A stretch of DNA of 62,252 nt from Acidobacteriota bacterium (lineage in GTDB: Bacteria; Acidobacteriota; Blastocatellia; Chloracidobacteriales; JADJPF01), in NCBI GenBank assembly GCA_016213785.1, contig JACQZQ010000087.1, positions 1 through 62,252 on the forward strand. Reading direction: 5' to 3'. This document shows positions 8,612 to 36,701 of the stretch, piece by piece. Positions within the stretch are counted from its first letter, which is position 1; every line of letters begins with the position of its first letter. The notes beneath the pieces are model-generated. The model ran no database searches, was not told the origin of the DNA, and worked only from the letters and a program-made list of their open reading frames with translations. The translations under genes were made by a program, and so were the position numbers.

Positions 8612-8633
8612 ATTTTAATAAATACGTAAATTT

Positions 8634-8666
8634 AGGGAGCAAAAAATATTTTTGCTCCCTATTAAT
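8634..8666 (+). terminator. Intrinsic terminator after the NHL-repeat gene
   Basis: AGGGAGCAAAAA at 8634-8645 pairs with TTTTTGCTCCCT at 8649-8660, and a T-rich tail (ATTAATTTTTT) follows. It lies 23 nt after the NHL gene stop and just before the ribosome binding site of the next gene. Confidence 0.85.
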
Positions 8667-8686
8667 TTTTTAACCGAGGTAAAATT

Positions 8687-9361
8687 GTGGACTCTACCTT
8701 AAATCCTGTAGAAATTCGAGTACTTGGAGCATTAGTTGAAAAACACCTTTCAACCCCTGATTATTACCCACTATCCTTAAATGCTCTGGTAAATGCTTGT
8801 AATCAATTATCTAACCGTGAGCCAGTAGTTTCTTATGATGAAAATATAGTATTAAAAGCACTAGATAGTTTACGTAAAAAAGGTTTAGCAAGAGCTATTT
8901 CTGGCCCAGATATAAGAGTGCCTAAATATGCTCATGCAGTTGAAGATTTTTTTAATCTAGCAATTCAAGAAGTGGCTGTTTTATGTGTTTTAATGCTTAG
9001 AGGTGTGCAAACCGTTGGAGAAATTCGAGGACGCAGTGGACGCTTATATGAGTTTTCTGATTTATCTGAAGTAGAATTAACTATACAAGGGTTAATTGAT
9101 CGCCAACCTCAAGCCCTAATAGTTAGACTTCCTCGCCAACCAGGGACAAAAGAGTCTCGCTATAGTCATTTGCTTGGAGGAATAGTTGAGGTTGAACAGA
9201 AGACTAATGAGCTTAAACAATCTGAAACTGAACAAGTTGAAACCCTTAGCTCTAATGAAAACGAAAGAATTGATAGATTAGAAAAGGAAATAGAAGAATT
9301 GCGTAAGCAGCTAGGCTTACTTAGCCAACAGTTCCAAGAATTTAAACACCAGTTTGAATAG
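8687..9361 (+). CDS. YceH-like DUF480 family protein
   Basis: This is a 224-residue protein of the DUF480/YceH family, which consists of two winged-helix domains of unknown role. Family blocks are clear: NPVEIRVLGALVEKHLSTPDYYPLSLNALV at the N-terminus, ACNQLSNREPVVSY, and the second winged helix with LCVLMLRGVQTVGEIRGRSGRL. A charged coiled-coil-like tail (about 175-224, ERIDRLEKEIEELRKQL) is typical of the family. A GTG start is used, with GAGG about 8 nt upstream. It has its own upstream terminator and a 119-nt gap before dxr, so it may be a single-gene unit or the first gene of the dxr operon. DNA binding is plausible from the fold, but no target is known. Confidence 0.85.
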   Translation: MDSTLNPVEIRVLGALVEKHLSTPDYYPLSLNALVNACNQLSNREPVVSYDENIVLKALDSLRKKGLARAISGPDIRVPKYAHAVEDFFNLAIQEVAVLCVLMLRGVQTVGEIRGRSGRLYEFSDLSEVELTIQGLIDRQPQALIVRLPRQPGTKESRYSHLLGGIVEVEQKTNELKQSETEQVETLSSNENERIDRLEKEIEELRKQLGLLSQQFQEFKHQFE

Positions 9362-9480: not shown

Positions 9481-10680
9481 ATGCAAAAAGTAGCAATACT
9501 AGGTTCTACAGGTTCAATAGGGAGAAATACTTTAGATGTGGTTGATAGGCTTTCGCCACGTTTTCAAGTTGTAGCTCTTTCTGGTGGAACAAATATAGAA
9601 TTACTAGCTGAACAAACATTACGTTATAAGCCTGAGATAATTTCTGTTGCAACAGAGTCACACGCTAAAGACTTAAAAGAGCGTCTAGCCTCTCTAAACT
9701 GTTTAACATCAAAAATTTATGTTGGTATGGAAGGGATGTTAGAAGTTGCTACTCATCCTCAGGCTGAAATAGTTGTTTCTGCTACTGTTGGTGCACTAGG
9801 ACTACTTCCTACTTATAAAGCTATAGAACTAGGTCGGCGAGTAGCTATTGCTAATAAAGAACCTTTAGTTATGGCAGGCGAGTTAATGCAAAAATGTGCT
9901 CGTGAAAATAGGGCTGAGATTTTACCTGTAGATAGTGAACATAATGCTCTACACCAGTGTTTAAGAGGCGAAAAAAAACATGAGGTAGTTAGGCTAATTT
10001 TAACCGCTTCAGGTGGCCCATTTCGTAATGCTTCTAAAGAGGAAATGGAAAAAGCTACTGTTAAAGAAGCCTTAAACCATCCTACTTGGCAAATGGGGTC
10101 AAAAATTACTATTGACTCTGCAACTATGATGAATAAAGGGTTAGAGGTTATTGAAGCACATTGGCTATTTGGTTTTACTCCAGAACAAATAGATATTGTT
10201 ATTCACCCACAATCTGTTGTGCATTCAATGGTTGAGTTAGTTGATGGTTCTTTTCTCGCTCAACTTGGTCGCACTGATATGAGACTACCTATTCAGTATG
10301 CTATGACTTATCCTGAGCGTTTAGTTTTAGATCTGCCAAGGCTTGACCTACCTAGTTTACAAAAATTAGAATTTTTTGCTCCAGATCGTGAACGTTTTCC
10401 TGCAATAGACCTCTCTTACAAAGCTTTGCAATTAGGTGGTGTTGCTCCTGCTGTCTTAAATGCAGCTAATGAAGTAGCCGTAGCTGCATTTTTAGCTGGT
10501 AAAATTGGTTTTATGGACATTTCAAAATTAATTGCTCAAGCACTCTTAGCTTGTGAAAAACAAGGAGTTAAAGAGCTTAACAGTATTGAAGATGCCTTAA
10601 ATGCCGATGATTGGACTAGGGTGCAAACATCAGCATTTATTACAGAATTAGCAGATTTAAGCTTAACAGGAAAATATTAA
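9481..10680 (+). CDS. dxr: 1-deoxy-D-xylulose 5-phosphate reductoisomerase
   Basis: This enzyme rearranges and reduces DXP to 2-C-methyl-D-erythritol 4-phosphate with NADPH, the committed step of the non-mevalonate isoprenoid pathway in the cytosol. The 399 residues match the family length. Visible motifs are the NADPH loop GSTGSIGRNTLDV (7-19), NKEPLVMAG (about 120), the metal-binding PVDSEHNALHQCL (about 150), GSKITIDSATMMNKGLEVIEA (about 205-225) and HPQSVVHSMVE. GAGG lies 9 nt before the ATG. The Gfo/Idh/MocA oxidoreductase follows after 14 nt, implying co-transcription. No anomalies were seen. Confidence 0.97.
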   Translation: MQKVAILGSTGSIGRNTLDVVDRLSPRFQVVALSGGTNIELLAEQTLRYKPEIISVATESHAKDLKERLASLNCLTSKIYVGMEGMLEVATHPQAEIVVSATVGALGLLPTYKAIELGRRVAIANKEPLVMAGELMQKCARENRAEILPVDSEHNALHQCLRGEKKHEVVRLILTASGGPFRNASKEEMEKATVKEALNHPTWQMGSKITIDSATMMNKGLEVIEAHWLFGFTPEQIDIVIHPQSVVHSMVELVDGSFLAQLGRTDMRLPIQYAMTYPERLVLDLPRLDLPSLQKLEFFAPDRERFPAIDLSYKALQLGGVAPAVLNAANEVAVAAFLAGKIGFMDISKLIAQALLACEKQGVKELNSIEDALNADDWTRVQTSAFITELADLSLTGKY

Positions 10681-10694
10681 TTTAGGGGAAATCT

Positions 10695-11651
10695 ATGTTA
10701 AAAGTTGCTGTTATTGGAGTTGGCTACTTAGGCCGCCACCATGCAAGAATTTATGCCAATATGCCAGGAGTAAAGCTAGTAGGTGTTTGTGATAGCAATT
10801 TAGAACGCGGCCAAGCTATTGCTAAAGAATATAACACTGAATTTTATGCAGATTATCGTGATCTTTTTGGAAAAATTGATGCTGTAAGTTTAGCCGTTCC
10901 TACAATTGACCATTGTTCAATAGGTTGTGATTTACTAAAAAATAAAATCTCAGTTTTAATTGAAAAACCAATTGCACGCACTTTAAGCGAAGCAGATGAG
11001 CTAATTAGTACAGCAAAAGCTAATAATGTTTGCTTACAAGTTGGTCATTTAGAACGTTTTAATCCTGGTGTTGTAGCTCTTAGTAGAGTTGTTACTACTC
11101 CAAGGTTTTTTGAAACTCATAGAATGAGTATGTTTTCCCCTCGTAGCCTAGATATTGATGTAGTGATGGATTTAATGGTTCATGACTTAGATATTATTTC
11201 CTGGCTAGTAAAATCTCCTATAACTAATATTAGCGCAGTAGGTATTCCAGTAATTTCCCCTAAGTTTGATATTGCTAATGCAAGGCTTGAGTTTGCTAAT
11301 GGATGTATTGCAAATGTTACAGCTAGCCGAATTTCTAGTGAAAAAACGCGTAAATTAAGACTTTTTCAGCCAGGTATATATATTTCCTTAGATTATGTTA
11401 CTCAACAAGCAGCAATTTGTAGCCTAAATCCACCTAAAACAGGTAATGCACCTGAAATAGTAGCAGGAGTTTTGCCTGTAAAAGCTGATGAGCCTTTAAG
11501 AGCCGAACTAGATGCTTTTGTTGAGGCTGTTAAAAATAACCAAAACCCTTTAGTTACGGGAGAAGATGGGCGTAATGCTTTAGCTTTGGCTCTAGAAGTA
11601 AGCGAAAAAATTGCAGAACATGCTAAAAAAGTGGGTTTGCTAAAGGGCTAA
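10695..11651 (+). CDS. Gfo/Idh/MocA-family NAD-dependent oxidoreductase
   Basis: The 318-residue protein has an N-terminal Rossmann fold (KVAVIGVGYLGRHHARIY, then CDSNLERG), the EKPIARTLSEADELI signature near residue 92, and a C-terminal substrate domain with VGHLERFNP and VHDLDIISWLV. Members reduce or oxidise sugars or UDP-sugars with NAD(P). The close sequence style and the neighbourhood of isoprenoid and lipid A genes suggest a nucleotide-sugar substrate, for example a GnnA-like 3-dehydrogenase of UDP-GlcNAc, but no aminotransferase partner (GnnB) is seen here. The gene follows dxr by 14 nt with AGGGGAAA as ribosome binding site and converges on the minus-strand block. Confidence 0.82.
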   Translation: MLKVAVIGVGYLGRHHARIYANMPGVKLVGVCDSNLERGQAIAKEYNTEFYADYRDLFGKIDAVSLAVPTIDHCSIGCDLLKNKISVLIEKPIARTLSEADELISTAKANNVCLQVGHLERFNPGVVALSRVVTTPRFFETHRMSMFSPRSLDIDVVMDLMVHDLDIISWLVKSPITNISAVGIPVISPKFDIANARLEFANGCIANVTASRISSEKTRKLRLFQPGIYISLDYVTQQAAICSLNPPKTGNAPEIVAGVLPVKADEPLRAELDAFVEAVKNNQNPLVTGEDGRNALALALEVSEKIAEHAKKVGLLKG

Positions 11652-29752: not shown

Positions 29753-31258
29753 CTATCTTAAAAAACTATTACTAAACACTGGGTTTTTAGTGTTTTGCTC
29801 ATAAAAATCTTCTTTTACCGTGCCATCTGATTTTATTGTTAACATGGTAAAACCATTGTATACACGAACACCTCCATCAGGATTAGGAGTGTGTGCATAA
29901 TAAACTATATTTTCACACTCGTTTAGCTCCCATGCGTTCCCAAAAGGAAAAGCTGCATGCCCAGTACAACGAGCTAAAGTATTTCTGCCTGTAACAGTGG
30001 GTGATTTATAAACAATACCATTATGAACATGTCCCCAATACCAGGCTGCTGGATCGCCTCCTAGTGCAGAATTTAACTCTGTCCATAGGTTGGTTTCTTT
30101 TGAACCATCGTCAGTTAGTCCATTGTGGTGAGTCAGTACAATGACTTTGTTAGCTGATAGATTAAGATTTTTAATCCAAGATATTTGACCATCATCTGGT
30201 CCTCCTAAGCTGCCATTTGTAAAAAAGACTGAATGAGAAAAATAAGCGGAGTCAAGCCCTAATATCGTCCATCCACCATAAGCTAAAGCAAAATAACTTG
30301 TTTTCTGTTGTTGAGAAAAGCGTTGGTCTGCAAGCAAAACATTGAAATATCCTTTACCACCACTATACATTTCATGGTTAGAATTGAGAGCAAAAGAATT
30401 TGCTATTGGAGGCCAAAGAGCTAAAAAATTATTTTTCTCTTCGTTTAAAGGTAAAAAATCCCCTGCCGTGCCCGCATAATAGACATCCCCTAAGTGAATT
30501 ATATAGTCTGGTTTTAATGCTAATACCTGGTTAATAATGGCTTTTGCTGTATCATCACCTGTCCCCCAATCACCTAACAATGCTATTTTAACTCTCTGCG
30601 GCCTACTACCTACCAAAGAGATAGGTGGTACATTGGTTGTACTAAAAGGAACACGATTATGAGAAATAGTAGATATCATATAATCAATTGCTGCCCATAA
30701 CCAATTGGCATCAAGTGATTCATAAAAGTTTAATCCAAAAATACTACCATTCATTGCTACTACACCCATGGTTTTAACGGCATTTAGTAACGCATTGTAG
30801 TTTTCAGTGCTAATTTGTGTAGGAGCAAGTGATTGAAACACATCCCAAATGGCTTTGAATATTTTATGTTCATCCAAAAGTTTTTGAATAAAATTGGGTG
30901 GGTTATGTATCCAGTAAAGAAAAAGACCATACATTACTTCCCCACTTCCTCCTGGATCAACTGGCGGGGACCCAATCCAGATATTGTTGTGTATCATTAC
31001 TTCTATCAATTCATATTCACTAGCTTGCAAAAAACTAACAAAGCCCAATACATGAAGTTTCTCAGCAGAATCACGTAGACTTAATTGCAGTGGTTCATCA
31101 CTCTTTAATTGCTCTTCTAATTTATCAAGAGGCTGTTCAAACATATCTATATTGCTAGCTTGCAAAAAACTAACAATATTGGTTAGATGTAACTTCATTG
31201 CCTCATCTTCTTCCAAACGCAGTTTTGATTCATTGAGAGAGTCTTTGGGTAGATCCAT
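29753..31258 (-). CDS. Calcineurin-like metallophosphoesterase at the end of the peptide locus
   Basis: The 501 residues have a C-terminal metallophosphoesterase domain (about 218-480) with all metal motifs: ALLGDWGTGDD, YIIHLGDVYYAG (a GDxxY form as in purple acid phosphatases), NSNHEMY, VLTHHNG and WGHVHNG. The N-terminal 215 residues are unknown. They hold a 45-residue tandem duplication with VSFLQAS at 29-35 and 74-80; at DNA level a 22-bp exact repeat recurs at 31020-31041 and 31155-31176. There is no signal peptide. GAGGTGAATT precedes the ATG. It is the last gene of the minus-strand peptide locus, 118 nt after a precursor gene, with a long hairpin between. A tailoring or immunity role is conceivable, but an unrelated neighbour is equally possible. 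Confidence 0.83.
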   Translation of the reverse strand: MDLPKDSLNESKLRLEEDEAMKLHLTNIVSFLQASNIDMFEQPLDKLEEQLKSDEPLQLSLRDSAEKLHVLGFVSFLQASEYELIEVMIHNNIWIGSPPVDPGGSGEVMYGLFLYWIHNPPNFIQKLLDEHKIFKAIWDVFQSLAPTQISTENYNALLNAVKTMGVVAMNGSIFGLNFYESLDANWLWAAIDYMISTISHNRVPFSTTNVPPISLVGSRPQRVKIALLGDWGTGDDTAKAIINQVLALKPDYIIHLGDVYYAGTAGDFLPLNEEKNNFLALWPPIANSFALNSNHEMYSGGKGYFNVLLADQRFSQQQKTSYFALAYGGWTILGLDSAYFSHSVFFTNGSLGGPDDGQISWIKNLNLSANKVIVLTHHNGLTDDGSKETNLWTELNSALGGDPAAWYWGHVHNGIVYKSPTVTGRNTLARCTGHAAFPFGNAWELNECENIVYYAHTPNPDGGVRVYNGFTMLTIKSDGTVKEDFYEQNTKNPVFSNSFLR

Positions 31259-31294
31259 AATTCACCTCAAAATAGTATTTTTCTATGTTTAGAG

Positions 31295-31340
31295 AAGGAT
31301 TAATATTAGCGCTAGCAATAGCCCTATAATATTAATCCTT
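31295..31340 (-). promoter_or_regulatory. Long hairpin between peptide gene 1 and the metallophosphoesterase gene
   Basis: Exact 14-nt arms (31295-31308 AAGGATTAATATTA and 31327-31340) enclose an 18-nt loop. No T-run follows on the minus strand. It may lower read-through or protect the 3' end of the peptide mRNA. Confidence 0.5.
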
Positions 31341-31376
31341 ATATACTAACTGCTAATGCTAATAATTTATAACAAG

Positions 31377-31586
31377 TTATGAGCATTCTTGGAAGCACTG
31401 AACCGCTTTTGGCCCAGCACAAGCTACCCAGCAAGGTATGCTGGTTAAACAATAAGCACACTTAAGAGCACCTAAGCCTAAACATTTCACCATACACCAA
31501 ATATCGATAGAGGGCATCACATTAGCTTGAGGCGCTGTTGCACTAAAACTTCTCATTACAGGTTTAGCTTGATTTGGTAATCTCAT
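31377..31586 (-). CDS. Cys-rich RiPP-like precursor peptide 1
   Basis: The 69-residue peptide begins MRLPNQAKPVMRSF. An in-frame upstream extension exists, but TAGGAGGAATA directly before this ATG and the identical start of its twin fix the start. Residues 1-26 look like a leader ending NVMPS; residues 27-69 are the core, with eight Cys at 31, 35, 43, 46, 52, 56, 64 and 68. The core is an internal repeat: C-x3-C-x7-C-x2-C then C-x3-C-x7-C-x3-C. This suggests two small helical hairpins cross-linked by disulfides, thioethers or metal. Leader and V-x-PS site resemble cyanobactin-type protease recognition. It is about 75 percent identical to peptide 2. It is the last precursor gene of the locus. 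Real expression and modification are inferred. Confidence 0.78.
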   Translation of the reverse strand: MRLPNQAKPVMRSFSATAPQANVMPSIDIWCMVKCLGLGALKCAYCLTSIPCWVACAGPKAVQCFQECS

Positions 31587-31631
31587 TATTCCTCCTAAAT
31601 TCCTGCTAAAAAATAATTGTTTATTAGATAA

Positions 31632-31668
31632 AGCTTTAGTCATCACTGTTAAAATGACGACTAAAGCT
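31632..31668 (-). promoter_or_regulatory. Hairpin between peptide genes 2 and 1
   Basis: Arms AGCTTTAGTCATCA (31632-31645) and 31655-31668 pair with one mismatch around a 9-nt loop. It lies in the mRNA upstream of peptide 1 and within the unlikely N-terminal extension of that ORF. It could set the ratio of the twin peptides by stopping read-through or protecting RNA ends. Confidence 0.5.
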
Positions 31669-31773
31669 CAGAATAAGAGCTTGTTTTGAGAGCAAAATTA
31701 ATACATAAGCAAGTTGGAGTTGAAGCGATATTACTTATGTTTTTCACTACCAACACCAATGATTTGTATTAAT

Positions 31774-31983
31774 TTATGAGCATTGTTGGAAGCATTGAAC
31801 TGCTTTTGGTCCAGCACAAGATATCCAGCAACTTATGTCTGTTCCACATTTAAGACAACCAATTGCTCCAAATCCTAGACACTTTATCATGCACCAAACA
31901 TCAAAAGAGGGTGTCACATCAGCTTGTGGTGCTGCTGCACTAAAACTTCTCATTACAGGTTTAGCTTGATTTGGTAATCTCAT
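31774..31983 (-). CDS. Cys-rich RiPP-like precursor peptide 2
   Basis: The 69-residue peptide has the same length, start (MRLPNQAKPVMRSFSA) and Cys positions (31, 35, 43, 46, 52, 56, 64, 68) as peptide 1. The leader ends DVTPS at 22-26 and the core begins FDVWC. Variation between the twins is concentrated in residues 24-55 (the end of the leader and the first half of the core), while the C-terminal block CAGPKAVQCFQ is invariant. TAGGAGGAATA precedes the ATG. It is separated from peptide 1 by 187 nt that include a hairpin and from peptide 3 by 274 nt. The pair looks like a recent tandem duplication under selection on the Cys scaffold. No homologous antibiotic is recognised. Confidence 0.78.
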   Translation of the reverse strand: MRLPNQAKPVMRSFSAAAPQADVTPSFDVWCMIKCLGFGAIGCLKCGTDISCWISCAGPKAVQCFQQCS

Positions 31984-32257
31984 TATTCCTCCTAAAAAAA
32001 TATAGTATTGTTCATTGTTTCAGCCCTATATCATCCACACCATAAGCGGGTTGATACACTATTAACGTCTCGAAAATAAAAAGGTTAAACAAAGCAAAAT
32101 TAACTAATGCGTTTAAAGAAAAAGGTTTTTGAGCAAGTAATGGAACTTAATGAGCTTTTCCATTAGAATTGTGCAAAAATATTAGCTTTAAGACTATTGG
32201 TTTAGTCTTTTGCTTAGTAACCAAAATCTTTCCAATTTCATTATTTCAAATAATTAC

Positions 32258-32470
32258 TTAACAACGTTGACAGGTTCCGCTATTAAGTAGTAATGATTTT
32301 CCACCTATAGCTCTACAGTTATGACAATCATATCTCTCGCCTATAACTCTACCTGTACAATCCGTTGTGTTGTAACACTTCAAGCTTGGCTCAATCCCTT
32401 TATTGAAAATGAACCTACTTGAATTAAAAGACACTCTCTCTATAGAAGGAGATTGTTTTGGTAATCGCAT
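32258..32470 (-). CDS. Cys-rich RiPP-like precursor peptide 3 (different core)
   Basis: The 70-residue peptide starts MRLPKQSPSIERVSF, sharing the MRLPxQ opening with the twins but with a different body. The leader ends with GIEPS (25-29), which fits the cyanobactin recognition consensus G-[LV]-E-[AP]-S apart from a conservative I. The core (30-70) has six Cys at 32, 38, 49, 52, 67 and 70; two are in CxxC pairs (CHNC, CQRC), giving a zinc-ribbon-like spacing. GGAGG precedes the ATG. It lies 52 nt after the double PatG-domain gene and is thus the first precursor in the transcript. The product is unknown. Confidence 0.72.
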   Translation of the reverse strand: MRLPKQSPSIERVSFNSSRFIFNKGIEPSLKCYNTTDCTGRVIGERYDCHNCRAIGGKSLLLNSGTCQRC

Positions 32471-32522
32471 AAATGCCTCCTTTTGTTCTCTAATATGTTT
32501 TAGTTAAACAAGTGGCTAAATA

Positions 32523-34595
32523 TTACATAGTCCAAGTACGCATTTTTCCTATTTTCACAGGAACAATGTCACTAACATCTATTGTAAATCGATACATTCT
32601 ACGAGCTTGGTTATTGCCAGAGGGATCAAAAAATATTAGCTTTACATCCCAGCAATCTCCACTTGGCCGGCAAATAGGGCTAGGCTCTACATCTATAGAC
32701 TGAAGATCCAGACTCTTATTTATGGCAGAGCTATAGACAGTATCTAGTTGGAATGCGCGAGTTGCAGCATAGTTAATAGCCCTTTCTTGGGGGCTAAGTC
32801 CTAGATTACGAATTTCATAGTAAACTCTTGCAAGAAAATTCCCTAATCCACCATCAATTCTATCTGCTACTGCTTTACTTTTTGTCTCATCCCAGTTGCC
32901 TCTTTTTCGCGTTTCTTCTGCGCGACTTCTAGACTTTTCAGTTAGTGTGTTTATTGACCATGCATACATACCTCTAACTTCTGGATGGATTACTGGTAAG
33001 GTATAGCCATTAAGTAAAGTGACTTTACCAGAAACAACCCCTGGTATTGATATTTGTTCTTCTTCCTTTTGTTCTTTAAGAAACTCTCTTAAACGTTGAT
33101 AGCCTACATCTGCAAAAGACCCAAATGGTTGAATAGCATATATTGGGATATCATCTGAATTAAGTGTCCAAATGACATCAGTAGCATCAGAAGGATTATT
33201 TTCAAGGTGGGCTAATAGTACTTCTGGTAAATCAACCTCTCCTCCATCAGTTTGTTGTACAAATGAGTCACGTCTTGCTTCAGTACCAAAGTCATAGCCA
33301 ATTTGCCCTAATGCATACACTAAAGAAGATGATATACCGTTACTATTATTACTTTTGCTACCATTACTACATTTACAATCGCCATTTCCACCAGAAGGAA
33401 AGATGCTATTAATATAAGGATTACTAAGAAAAGATTGTTTTTCTACAGTTTGGAGTTGGAAGTTATCTACTAGTGTTGCTTCTTGTTTTATTACACTTGA
33501 TTGATTTAGTTTAGTAAGACCTGATGGTTCAATAGCTCCAGACATAGACACTAAATCATTGTCAACATACCAATCACGTACTTCTCCTACTACAACAGGA
33601 ATAATGTCACTAACATCTATGGTAAATCGATATACTCTACGAGCTTGCTCAAAGCGACTATTAGGGTTGAAAAATATTAATTTCACATCCCAACAATCTC
33701 TTCCTGGTCTACAAGTTGAATTAGCTTCTACATCTATTGTATCAAGACTCATTTCTGCATTTATTGCAGAAATATAGATGTTATTAAGTTGGAATGCATT
33801 AGTTGCTGCATGGTTAATAGCTCTTTCTTGTGAAGAAAGCCCTAGATTACGAGCTTCATGGTAGATTCGTCTAAGAAAATTGATTATTGCTTGAGTTTTA
33901 TTGAATTGTCGTGCTCTTTCTTCTTCATTTTCTGAAATTTCTCCTATCAAACTTTTAATTAATGTAGCAGTTGACCAGCTATACATACCTCTAACATCAG
34001 GAAATAGCACTGGTACAGTGTGCCCATTGATTAAAGAAACCTTACCAGAAACAATACCTGGTATTGATACTCGCTCTGTCCCATCTTCTCCTTGGGCTTT
34101 GAGAAATTCCATTAGATATTGATAACCAATAGCAGCAAAAGGCCCAAATGGCCGAATAGCATATATTGGGGTACTGTCTAAATTAAGCGTCCAGATAACA
34201 CTAGCAGCATCAGAAGGATTATTTTCAAAATTTGCTAACAGTTCTGCTACTGAAATGATACCTTCTTCGTTAGGTTTTTCTAATAATGAATCGCGTCTTG
34301 CTTCAGTACCAAAGTCAAAGCCAATGTGCCCCAGTGCATATACTAGGGATGGTGGTGTACTGCCACCACATCCACAGCTACCACCTTCACCAGAAGGAGA
34401 TATATTACTTAGATAAGAGCCATTAGTGGAAATAGGATCTATCTCTATCTTTTCTGGTCTTGGGATATTCGCCATAGTCACTTCTTTTTCATTTGGTCTA
34501 GTAAGTCCTGATGGTTGAATGGATTCCGACACAGCAATGGAATTGTTGTCTAGGATCTGGAGCGATTCAGAAACTTCTATTCTTTGTTCGGACAT
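32523..34595 (-). CDS. Double PatG C-terminal-domain protein without protease
   Basis: The 690-residue protein contains two complete copies of the PatG C-terminal unit (PatG_D plus PatG_C regions of the cyanobactin macrocyclase), at about 84-345 and 424-690. Each begins LVYALGxIGxDFGTEARRDS and ends with CWDVKLIFF and a YRFTIDVSDI block. Before each unit lie an IxPSG motif (26-30 and 355-359) and a second I-x-PSG followed by a CxC cluster (65-76 with SCGCGG; 398-409 with DCKC). The first 20 residues copy the region after Met308 of the neighbouring protease. AAGGAG precedes the ATG. The PatG unit has no assigned activity; leader binding or scaffolding is inferred. The gene arose by duplication, as shown by protease remnants upstream. 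Confidence 0.85.
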   Translation of the reverse strand: MSEQRIEVSESLQILDNNSIAVSESIQPSGLTRPNEKEVTMANIPRPEKIEIDPISTNGSYLSNISPSGEGGSCGCGGSTPPSLVYALGHIGFDFGTEARRDSLLEKPNEEGIISVAELLANFENNPSDAASVIWTLNLDSTPIYAIRPFGPFAAIGYQYLMEFLKAQGEDGTERVSIPGIVSGKVSLINGHTVPVLFPDVRGMYSWSTATLIKSLIGEISENEEERARQFNKTQAIINFLRRIYHEARNLGLSSQERAINHAATNAFQLNNIYISAINAEMSLDTIDVEANSTCRPGRDCWDVKLIFFNPNSRFEQARRVYRFTIDVSDIIPVVVGEVRDWYVDNDLVSMSGAIEPSGLTKLNQSSVIKQEATLVDNFQLQTVEKQSFLSNPYINSIFPSGGNGDCKCSNGSKSNNSNGISSSLVYALGQIGYDFGTEARRDSFVQQTDGGEVDLPEVLLAHLENNPSDATDVIWTLNSDDIPIYAIQPFGSFADVGYQRLREFLKEQKEEEQISIPGVVSGKVTLLNGYTLPVIHPEVRGMYAWSINTLTEKSRSRAEETRKRGNWDETKSKAVADRIDGGLGNFLARVYYEIRNLGLSPQERAINYAATRAFQLDTVYSSAINKSLDLQSIDVEPSPICRPSGDCWDVKLIFFDPSGNNQARRMYRFTIDVSDIVPVKIGKMRTWTM

Positions 34596-34735
34596 ACTTT
34601 CTCCTTTTTAACTTTTTTAATGCTCTGATAACATTAGTAGTGTCGGCAATCTGAGAATAGTTCTTATCTATAGCCAGATATCTAAACTTATTTCTTTAGC
34701 AAAGCAAAATTGCCAACTTGTACATATTGGATATT
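34596..34735 (-). pseudogene. Decayed 3' end of a subtilisin domain upstream of the double PatG gene
   Basis: The minus strand aligns by eye with the end of the protease domain of the neighbouring gene (around 35781-35905): CGGCAATCTGAGAAT against TGGCAGTCTGAAAAT, TGCT..ATAA.ATT blocks, and the A-rich run before the ribosome binding site. It has a roughly 12-nt deletion and a one-base deletion that breaks the frame (readable as IRALKKLK against IEALKKIK). Homology fades beyond about 34700. Confidence 0.6.
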
Positions 34736-36701
34736 AGTAAACATGCCAGTCGCGTACTGTTCCTACTGACACAGGTATAATGTCGCTAACATCTACAGTG
34801 AATCGATATACTCTACGAGCTTGTTCAAATCGTTTAGAAGGATTGAAAAATGTCAATTTTACATCCCAACAATCTGATCCTAGCCTGCAAATGGGGCTAC
34901 GCTCTACACCAATTGTATCAAGAGTCATATTGTCTTTTATTGCAGACCTATAGGCTTGACTGACTTGAAATGCATTAGTTGCTGCATAGTTAATAGCTCT
35001 ATCTTGTGAAGAAAGCCCTAGATTACGGATTTCATAATAAACTCGTGCAAGAAAATTATGTATTTCTTGAATTTTCTTTTCTTTGTCTTCTTCTCCAAGA
35101 CCTTCTACTAAACTATTAACTAATGCGCCTGTTGACCAACTATACATACCTCTAACATCAGGAAAGAGTACTGGTATGGTATGACCATTAAGTAAAGTGA
35201 CTTTACCTGAAACAACTCCTGGTATCGACACTCGTTCTATTTCTGCTTCTTGCTGTGCCTTTAAAAACTCCCTTAAACGGTCATAACCAATAGTAGCAAA
35301 AGGCCCTAATGGTTGAATGGCATATATTGGAGTAGTATCTTGGTTAAGCGTCCAAATAACACCACTAGCCTGAGCGGGATTATTTTCAACATATGCTAAG
35401 AGTTCTGTTGGTAAATCGGTATTTTTTCCAGACTGTTGCAGAAATGAGTCGCGTCTTGCTTCAGTACCAAAGTCATATCCAATTTGTCCCAGTACATAAG
35501 CTAGAGAGGGCGGTGTATTATTACCACCACATCCACACCCACCATTTCCACCAGAAGGAAAGACACCACTACTTGCATAGATGCTACTATTACCAGGGAA
35601 AGACTGCGTTTGTGTACTTTGTGCTAAGGGATTTACTATAGACATCTCTTTTTTCATCATGCTTGATTCATTTGGTTTGGAAAGCCCTGAGCCTGAGGGT
35701 TGAATGCTTTCCGACACAGGAACGGAATTGTTGTTTATAACCTGGAGCAATTGAGAAGCTTCTATTCTTTGTTCGGACATGTTTTCTCCTTTTTTAATTT
35801 TTTTCAGTGCTTCAATAATATTGATACGACCTGCTAAAAGACGTTGGCAGTCTGAAAATGACTCTTCACCACATCCAGTAGCAGTATCTAAAATTACTTG
35901 GCGTATAAGACTAGGATTGATTTTTAAACCTTGTTTTAACTGTATGCTTAATAATAATGCAACAATACCTGAGACTATTGGAGTCGCAAAGCTTGTACCT
36001 GTGCGTAAAGCCGTTTCTCCGCCTGGCGTTGCTACCAAGATATTTTGACCAGGAGCAAGAACACCTTGAACTTGATATTTTTTACCCCAATTACTACTTT
36101 CTAATGGTGAACCTTGTCTATCCATTGCGCCTACAGCAAGCACAGAAGGAAGCGCAGCAGGAATGTGTAGACATTCACAACCATTATTTCCTGCGGCAGC
36201 AATAATTAATACATTATTTTTGGCACACAAACGTATAGCATCAGCTAATAATGGTTCAGCTTGACCAGTATTATCTAACTGTCCACCACTTATATTTATA
36301 ATATGTGCTCCATGTTGCACTGCCAAAGAAATAGCACGCGCAAGGTCAAGTTGTGAACAGGAAATAGATGAATCTGCATTACTGCCAAACACAGGTATTG
36401 ATAGACCTCGACAATAAGGAGCAATACCCCTTACTGTCCCTTTATGTGTACCGAAAATTATGCTGGCTACATTTGTACCGTGTTCTATTGGAAACCTTGC
36501 TGCTGACTTAGCTGATACAACAGTATCAATGGCTTTAAGATTAGCACCAATAAAACAGGGATGAGATAAATCTACTTGTCCATCAAGCACTGCAATGCAT
36601 ATGCTTGAGTTTCCTAGTGTTTCTCTCCATAACTCATCAAGACCTAATAACAATGGATCATTACTTTTGTTTGGAAGTATATTTGAATTTGTAACATTCA
36701 T
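34734..36701 (-). CDS. PatA/PatG-type subtilisin fused to a PatG C-terminal unit
   Basis: The 655-residue protein has a subtilase domain (about 15-300) close to the cyanobactin maturation proteases (LWRETLG, CIAVLDGQVDLSHPCF). The catalytic triad is Asp40, His74 (EHGTNV) and Ser237 (GTSFATP), with Asn172 as oxyanion residue. It has no signal peptide, so it acts in the cytosol on peptide precursors. A linker with IQPSG (333-337) and VFPSG plus CGCGG (380-393) leads to one PatG_D/PatG_C unit (400-655). Cyanobactin PatA cleaves precursors before the core; the GIEPS/VxPS sites in the three peptides are fitting substrates. An internal Shine-Dalgarno and Met308 mark an old gene junction. It is the first gene of the locus; no YcaO, oxidase or PatG macrocyclase protease is present. 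Confidence 0.9.
   Translation of the reverse strand: MNVTNSNILPNKSNDPLLLGLDELWRETLGNSSICIAVLDGQVDLSHPCFIGANLKAIDTVVSAKSAARFPIEHGTNVASIIFGTHKGTVRGIAPYCRGLSIPVFGSNADSSISCSQLDLARAISLAVQHGAHIINISGGQLDNTGQAEPLLADAIRLCAKNNVLIIAAAGNNGCECLHIPAALPSVLAVGAMDRQGSPLESSNWGKKYQVQGVLAPGQNILVATPGGETALRTGTSFATPIVSGIVALLLSIQLKQGLKINPSLIRQVILDTATGCGEESFSDCQRLLAGRINIIEALKKIKKGENMSEQRIEASQLLQVINNNSVPVSESIQPSGSGLSKPNESSMMKKEMSIVNPLAQSTQTQSFPGNSSIYASSGVFPSGGNGGCGCGGNNTPPSLAYVLGQIGYDFGTEARRDSFLQQSGKNTDLPTELLAYVENNPAQASGVIWTLNQDTTPIYAIQPLGPFATIGYDRLREFLKAQQEAEIERVSIPGVVSGKVTLLNGHTIPVLFPDVRGMYSWSTGALVNSLVEGLGEEDKEKKIQEIHNFLARVYYEIRNLGLSSQDRAINYAATNAFQVSQAYRSAIKDNMTLDTIGVERSPICRLGSDCWDVKLTFFNPSKRFEQARRVYRFTVDVSDIIPVSVGTVRDWHVY
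35778..35792 (-). promoter_or_regulatory. Internal ribosome binding site and ATG (Met308) within the protease gene
   Basis: AAAGGAG lies 5 nt before an in-frame ATG at the junction between protease and PatG region. The same sequence context, including MSEQRIE, starts the separate downstream gene. It could yield a stand-alone PatG unit of 348 residues, or be a relic of two fused genes. Confidence 0.6.

Follow-up and report, generated by a model that had tools for sequence, protein, structure and literature searches.

Organization of the locus

The subject of this analysis is a locus at positions 29753-36701 of a 62,252 nucleotide stretch of acidobacterial DNA (contig JACQZQ010000087.1; subsequently designated the window), which encodes a protease related to PatA of the cyanobactin pathway, three copies of the domain of unknown function (DUF) known from the C-terminus of PatG, and three small cysteine-rich peptides that are candidate precursors. 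The locus consists of six open reading frames (ORFs), all located on the minus strand and all intact at the coordinates first given, confirming the six-gene array with three Cys-rich peptides described in an earlier note on this DNA. The gene at 34734..36701 codes for a 655 aa fusion of a PatA-type subtilisin (S8) with a PatG-DUF, as assigned by profile and structure searches and AlphaFold. It is followed by the gene of a double PatG-DUF protein of 690 aa lacking a protease (32523..34595; profile searches and tree), by the genes of precursor peptides 1 (32258..32470; 70 aa, 6 Cys), 2 (31774..31983; 69 aa, 8 Cys) and 3 (31377..31586; 69 aa, 8 Cys; a paralogue of peptide 2), and by a metallophosphoesterase gene addressed below.

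The host genome comprises 6.4 Mb on 132 contigs and is 96% complete. The observation that the locus lacks a YcaO heterocyclase gene could be extended to this genome, in which none was detectable, although 4% may be missing. Likewise, no PatG_C unit other than the three of the locus is present elsewhere in the genome. When the operon was considered as an insertion, a search with flanking genes gave no clear empty site.

The protease is of the PatA type

The product of 34734-36701 contains the domains Peptidase_S8, PatG_D and PatG_C and scores 706 bits with TIGR03895. The top structure matches of its S8 domain are the PatA-type proteases 4h6w, 3zxx and 4h6v (306-337 bits, with 4h6w at 337), and the catalytic triad D40, H74 and S237 is invariant across 40 homologues. 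By these two measures, the locus has the PatA-type N-terminal protease of cyanobactin clusters. The PatG macrocyclase 4aks aligns with 179 bits, and the alignment is split in two around an insertion: a segment of ~50 residues in 4aks corresponds to only 14 residues in the window S8 domain, which therefore lacks the macrocyclase insertion. As this is the sole S8 domain of the locus, a PatG macrocyclase is absent and a macrocyclising reaction is not expected. Judged from these alignments, the enzyme is a PatA-type protease and not a PatG macrocyclase, so that the first half of its previous designation as PatA/PatG-type holds, while the second does not. In the AlphaFold model of the 655 aa protein the S8 domain and the DUF are folded, whereas the linker in between (residues 307-394) is disordered, so that the model speaks neither for nor against docking of the linker in the active site.

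The small peptides resemble cyanobactin precursors with long Cys-rich cores

Good ribosome-binding sites precede the start codons of all three small genes. Peptides 2 and 3 carry the leader start LPxQxxPVxR (LPNQAKPVMR in peptide 2), while peptide 1 begins with MRLPKQ. The cyanobactin leader model TIGR03678 covers peptides 2 and 3 over LPxQxxPVxR only, with 16.5-16.8 bits as compared to a cut-off of 39.6. PatA cuts after G(L/V)E(A/P)S (PMC10885120), and relaxed versions of this site precede the cores in peptides 1 (GIEPS), 2 (DVTPS) and 3 (NVMPS); the canonical GVEAS or GVEPS is present in the relatives L016 (Shewanella hanedai JCM 20706) and L105 (L numbers denote related loci). Cleavage at these positions would leave cores of 41 residues (32261-32383) for peptide 1 and of 43 residues each for peptides 2 (31777-31905) and 3 (31380-31508), in agreement with the core length of ~41-43 residues proposed before. 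Such lengths argue against a small N-to-C macrocycle or a short linear product. All three peptides end at the core, i.e. the macrocyclase site AYDG or a similar sequence is absent behind it, and none of them contains the heterocyclase recognition motif LAELSEEAL. Among 19 Cys-rich precursors from YcaO-free loci, 13 have the strict motif [GN][VIL]x[PA]S ahead of the first Cys, as compared to 0.24 in shuffles (maximum 3); this pattern misses close variants, among them DVTPS and GIEQS.

Peptides 2 and 3 share 75% of their residues; the leader is almost unchanged and the core has diverged, and the NG86 method yields nonsynonymous (dN) and synonymous (dS) divergences of 0.17 and 0.44, respectively (dN/dS ~0.4). 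Both cores are hydrophobic, with grand averages of hydropathy (GRAVY) of 0.74 and 0.92. In the AlphaFold model of peptide 2 the leader is disordered and the core helical (pLDDT 75-79), with the first helix beginning at residue 29, shortly behind the predicted cut after residue 26. This model is based on only four aligned sequences and is used as supporting evidence only; no PDB entry matched the modeled core.

The PatG-DUF occurs in three copies outside the cyanobactin clade

The 32523-34595 protein consists of two PatG_D/PatG_C units. The window units belong to PF18047 and PF18065 with scores above the Pfam cut-off, and the window DUF matches the patellamide PatG-DUF (PDB 4uvq) with 216 bits over 253 residues. 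In a maximum-likelihood tree of 109 DUF units, in which some long branches are uncertain, the three window units cluster together (support 99/96) and stand beside those of Cellvibrio, Oxalobacteraceae and Shewanella (98/92). A separate clade (100/100) is formed by 83 units including the cyanobactin PatA and PatG DUFs, and the window units are located outside of it. The two units of the double protein look like duplicates that arose within the locus. The DUF is found outside any macrocyclisation context, which supports the previous proposal that this C-terminal unit plays a role independent of macrocyclisation. As it is constant throughout these systems, whether or not they have a heterocyclase or macrocyclase, its role must be linked to a common element, namely the PatA protease, the LPxQxxPVxR leader or the cut site.

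Related loci recur in several phyla

A DUF search of 84,980 species genomes yielded 77 loci. The nearest are non-cyanobacterial, i.e. from Cellvibrio, an oxalobacterium and Shewanella hanedai, followed by several Planctomycetota, another acidobacterium, Mesorhizobium and others. PatG_C is rare: it was found in 4 of 396 genomes of the phylum sample, in 5 of 294 Planctomycetota and in 2 of 398 Pseudomonadota, each count including its centre genome, which was already known to be positive. The layout of protease-DUF gene plus precursors recurs in Acidobacteriota, Pseudomonadota and Planctomycetota. Of the leader-type peptides located close to a DUF gene, 112 are encoded on the DUF strand and 3 on the opposite one, and both window peptides that fit the leader search pattern share the DUF strand. 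Peptides 2 and 3 have homologues in the other acidobacterium (L024), where they adjoin a PatG-DUF gene and retain all 8 Cys. Two further loci, L104 (Planctomycetota) and L105 (Pseudomonadota), were fetched later and played no part in forming the idea; they have the same layout. The earlier note had stated that its proposal would fall if the peptides never occurred near such proteases in relatives, and the outcome in L024, L104, L105 and other loci is favorable. YcaO was not found within loci L010, L014-L029, L032 and L035, some of which stop at a contig end. Besides the protease-DUF family no gene recurs suggestively in at least three related loci, and therefore the core system appears to consist of protease-DUF and precursors. 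Three weak matches to peptides 2 and 3 in the phylum sample contained stop codons and were discarded as noise.

The metallophosphoesterase (29753..31258; Metallophos by profile search) is probably a bystander rather than a partner. Orthologues with ~52% identity exist in two relatives of the class (L107 and L108), beside which no leader peptide or PatG-DUF gene was seen within the short loci fetched; one of these genomes, G275, was scanned for PatG_C and is not among the matches. The gene was hence rejected as a part of the system, and its listing as a locus member finds no linkage elsewhere, neither in L107 and L108 nor in the related loci.

Several other arrangements were encountered. Outside Cyanobacteria, cyanobactin-like clusters that contain YcaO together with a PatA-type and a PatG-like gene occur in Sphingomonas sp. 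ERG5 (L058) and Bradyrhizobium sp. LTSP885 (L076). In a second lineage, DUF genes that are not fused to a protease lie beside runs of small, mostly Cys-rich peptides with starts similar to MNxPGFTAEASL (L012 ~10300-11400; in reverse-complement coordinates, L101 6145-7976, L102 6301-6483 and 9022-9417, and L103 2459-2860); no mention of this motif was found in the literature searched. In the two acidobacterial members, L011 and L012, the DUF gene has a separate S8 gene as its neighbor. YcaO-free cyanobacterial PatA-type loci encode Cys-free peptides (L042 11201-11633, L070 11949-12116, L086 6013-6171), in which an exact GVEAS is followed by a helix that is hydrophobic and possibly membrane-active. 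Finally, leader-bearing small proteins adjoining DUF genes in L022 (6653-6856) and L024 (3605-3799) end with CxxC...LNR, unlike the Cys-rich cores.

The enzyme linkers carry precursor-like cut-site motifs

PatA-site-like motifs are also present in the enzymes themselves. In the S8-DUF linker, GVFPS followed by a CxC stretch, GGNGGCGCGG, precedes the DUF (35523..35567, minus strand), and a second such motif, SIQPS, lies at 35694..35708 (minus strand). In the double protein, NISPS stands before GGSCGCGG and DUF unit 1 (34392..34406, minus strand), and SIFPS before GDCKC and DUF unit 2 (33393..33407, minus strand). Considering the 30 residues preceding the DUF in 73 nonredundant linkers, [VILF]x[AP]S was detected in 62 (shuffles 11.4, maximum 22 in 300) and [GSNTA][VIL][EDTQ][AP]S in 35 (shuffles 1.3, maximum 7). 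None of the 73 stretches contains the exact canonical G[VIL][ED][AP]S, which some linkers of cyanobacterial PatA have at a more upstream position. A looser [VILF]x[AP][SA] with CxC following within at most 6 residues was present in 38 of 51 nonredundant S8-DUF proteins (shuffles 3.1, maximum 8), as exemplified by GVFPSGGNGGCGCGG in the window and GVEPSGGCGCGG in a cyanobacterial PatA. Since the linkers share descent, all these counts overstate independence. PatG proteins have comparable sequences: VEASTAFSG is located immediately ahead of the domain in Prochloron PatG, and SVEASIAYDG of a Nostoc PatG resembles a PatA site with the macrocyclase site AYDG behind it. PatA-type linkers thus look as if they mimicked a precursor; no earlier description of the motif was found. 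Covariation of P and A between linkers and precursors (rho 0.51, p 0.012, 24 loci) is uncorrected for descent and is not relied on. Of note, the core of one L104 peptide (8623-8829) begins with GECGCGG directly after GLSPS and is near-identical there to the CxC stretch of enzyme linkers.

A predicted internal start separates protease and DUF

At the junction of the S8 domain and the DUF, AAATTAAAAAAGGAGAAAACATGTCCGAACAAA, the window gene contains an internal Shine-Dalgarno sequence AAGGAG and an in-frame ATG (Met308; 35778..35797, minus strand), predicted to serve as second start for a free DUF. The double-DUF gene begins with AAAGTTAAAAAGGAGAAAGTATGTCCGAACAA; its start codon is homologous to Met308 and its ribosome-binding site is identical. 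Requiring a Shine-Dalgarno match of at least 5 bases, an in-frame start in the early linker is present in 53 of 63 PatA-type genes (30 of 39 nonredundant ones; L017-L090, cyanobactin clusters included), whereas 79 of the 1892 start codons at other places in these genes have such a match. These counts are uncorrected for shared descent, and as the best of several linker codons was taken, the fair chance expectation is a few-fold above 4%, still far below the observed frequency. No such start exists in the seven PatG-type fusion genes that have a linker Met. An excess of GGA codons ahead of the internal start is partly circular and was not used. The frequency of the internal start and the homologous start of the window DUF-only gene make it probable that a free DUF is produced as well. 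No earlier description of the internal start was found in a literature from which subscription papers were mostly missing.

Both features could be by-products of low-complexity linkers and of an old gene fusion and lack a present function. In favor of this explanation, A, S, P, T and V abound in the linkers, which AlphaFold predicts to be disordered. We regard it as possible albeit unlikely: the motifs are far fewer in shuffled linkers, the start is frequent in PatA-type genes and missing from the seven PatG-type fusions, and the window itself has a DUF-only gene starting at this very codon. More tentatively, and with somewhat less than an even chance of being correct, PatA-type genes, those of classical cyanobactin clusters among them, would be two-product genes. 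Besides the protease-DUF, they would yield a separately translated DUF with an N-terminal tail that imitates a precursor (recognition site and CxC stretch) and is a substrate of this protease. In that case the DUF would be no mere tail of the enzyme but a processed partner, and the double-DUF gene of the window a later duplicate of the second product.

A probable minimal relative of the cyanobactin pathway

Taken together, the data make it probable that the locus represents a pathway related to that of the cyanobactins, but minimal and devoid of YcaO, in which PatA-like cleavage frees linear Cys-rich peptides and the DUF is the second essential part. The three small genes would encode precursors composed of an LPxQxxPVxR leader, a G/D/N-[IV]-x-P-S site and a single long Cys-rich core. 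A cytosolic PatA-type S8 protease would cut after the final Ser (PS or AS), yielding linear peptides of 41-43 residues and ~4.5-4.6 kDa, which probably form disulfides or bind metal and act in the manner of bacteriocins. The DUF, present in three copies here, is probably also translated alone. As the linkers carry the cut-site motif of the precursors, the protease probably trims its own linker, too. Gene content, motifs, conservation, the lack of YcaO in the assembly and of the macrocyclase at the locus, and the signals of an internal start are observations, whereas cleavage, disulfides, bioactivity, self-trimming and the function of the DUF are what we infer. In this form, the previous idea of a protease-matured family of Cys-rich peptides gains support from the recurring PatA/DUF toolkit devoid of YcaO and macrocyclase.

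Several points weigh against this interpretation. Expression, cleavage and activity of the locus products are predictions. The leader of peptide 1 (LPKQSPSIER) is weaker and matches LPxQxxPVxR only partly. A signal peptide, a transporter or a disulfide-forming enzyme by which the Cys-rich core could leave the cell or be oxidized was not seen at the locus. The linker motif is not fixed in place by AlphaFold, the linker being disordered, and several of the related loci lie at the ends of contigs in metagenome bins. Moreover, the patellamide PatG-DUF adopts a new fold and did not bind the precursor PatE' as assessed by nuclear magnetic resonance (PMC4259220), which speaks against the DUF being a leader-binding domain and makes simple leader binding doubtful for the DUF of patellamide PatG.

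The peptides might alternatively remain full-length, as cytosolic Cys-rich metal-binding or redox proteins, with protease and DUFs acting on another substrate. Disulfides of cytosolic Cys rarely persist, and 6-8 Cys per peptide at a locus with neither signal peptide nor exporter in sight would suit such proteins. However, a leader kept across unrelated cores, a cut-site motif at the leader/core border, the constant leader of peptides 2 and 3 next to diverging cores and the hydrophobicity of these two cores render this explanation improbable. About as improbable, or slightly more so, are heterocycles or other core modifications introduced by enzymes encoded elsewhere in the genome. Modification genes can be unlinked, and the Cys-rich cores do resemble those of modified peptides; but no YcaO was found in the nearly complete genome, no extra gene recurs in the related loci and the precursors lack the heterocyclase-guiding LAELSEEAL. 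Accordingly, the Cys modification of the cores put forward in the earlier note is left unsupported, the modifying enzyme being missing from the locus. A decayed cyanobactin cluster that lost heterocyclase and macrocyclase would have PatA, DUF, leader and cut site in common with cyanobactins, but is very improbable and was rejected as largely refuted by the intact ORFs, the DUF tree, the dN/dS ratio and the recurrence of the YcaO-free layout in other phyla.

Loci that retain only PatA, DUF and precursors provide the simplest setting for finding the role of the DUF of PatA and PatG, a question posed since its structure was solved (PMC4259220). With the linker cut sites and the internal start, concrete tests become feasible in any cyanobactin system. 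Beyond that, the PatA toolkit appears to serve Cys-rich peptides also outside Cyanobacteria, in a wider range that is still largely unexplored, and these loci separate the common leader motif LPxQxxPVxR from the heterocyclase-tied LAELSEEAL.

Comparison with known systems

With the cyanobactin pathway, represented by pat (PatA, PatE, PatG), the window shares the PatA-type protease, the PatG-DUF, LPxQxxPVxR and, in a relaxed form, a PatA-like site ahead of the core. In contrast to pat, it lacks the heterocyclase, the PatG macrocyclase, AYDG and LAELSEEAL, it has a single Cys-rich core of 41-43 residues per precursor in place of short cyclised cores, the DUF is present in three copies and the host is not a cyanobacterium. 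As the defining features macrocyclase, AYDG and LAELSEEAL fail, we do not class the system as a cyanobactin; it works like the first half of the pathway. A missing heterocyclase alone is not new: the acy (anacyclamide) and pag (prenylagaramide) cyanobactin clusters have none either (PMC4663559), but unlike the window they have retained the G macrocyclase, and their products are small cyclic peptides. The DUF of patellamide PatG (4uvq) is homologous, whereas in the window DUFs also occur in tandem and protease-free. PatB, AcyB and McaB (TIGR04220) are small proteins beside PatA that have a precursor-like LPxxSPPVxR start (L031 10847-11062, L048 10995-11246 and similar), lack a Cys-rich core and were not found in the window. 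By means of an in-frame internal start, two-product phage endolysin genes yield both the complete enzyme and a separate C-terminal domain (PMC9430671, PMC4777826), which is an analogy only, the second product of the window gene being predicted. As far as checked, novelty lies in PatA-only, macrocyclase-free loci that encode long Cys-rich cores and span several phyla, in the presence of the cut-site motif within enzyme linkers, and in the internal start.

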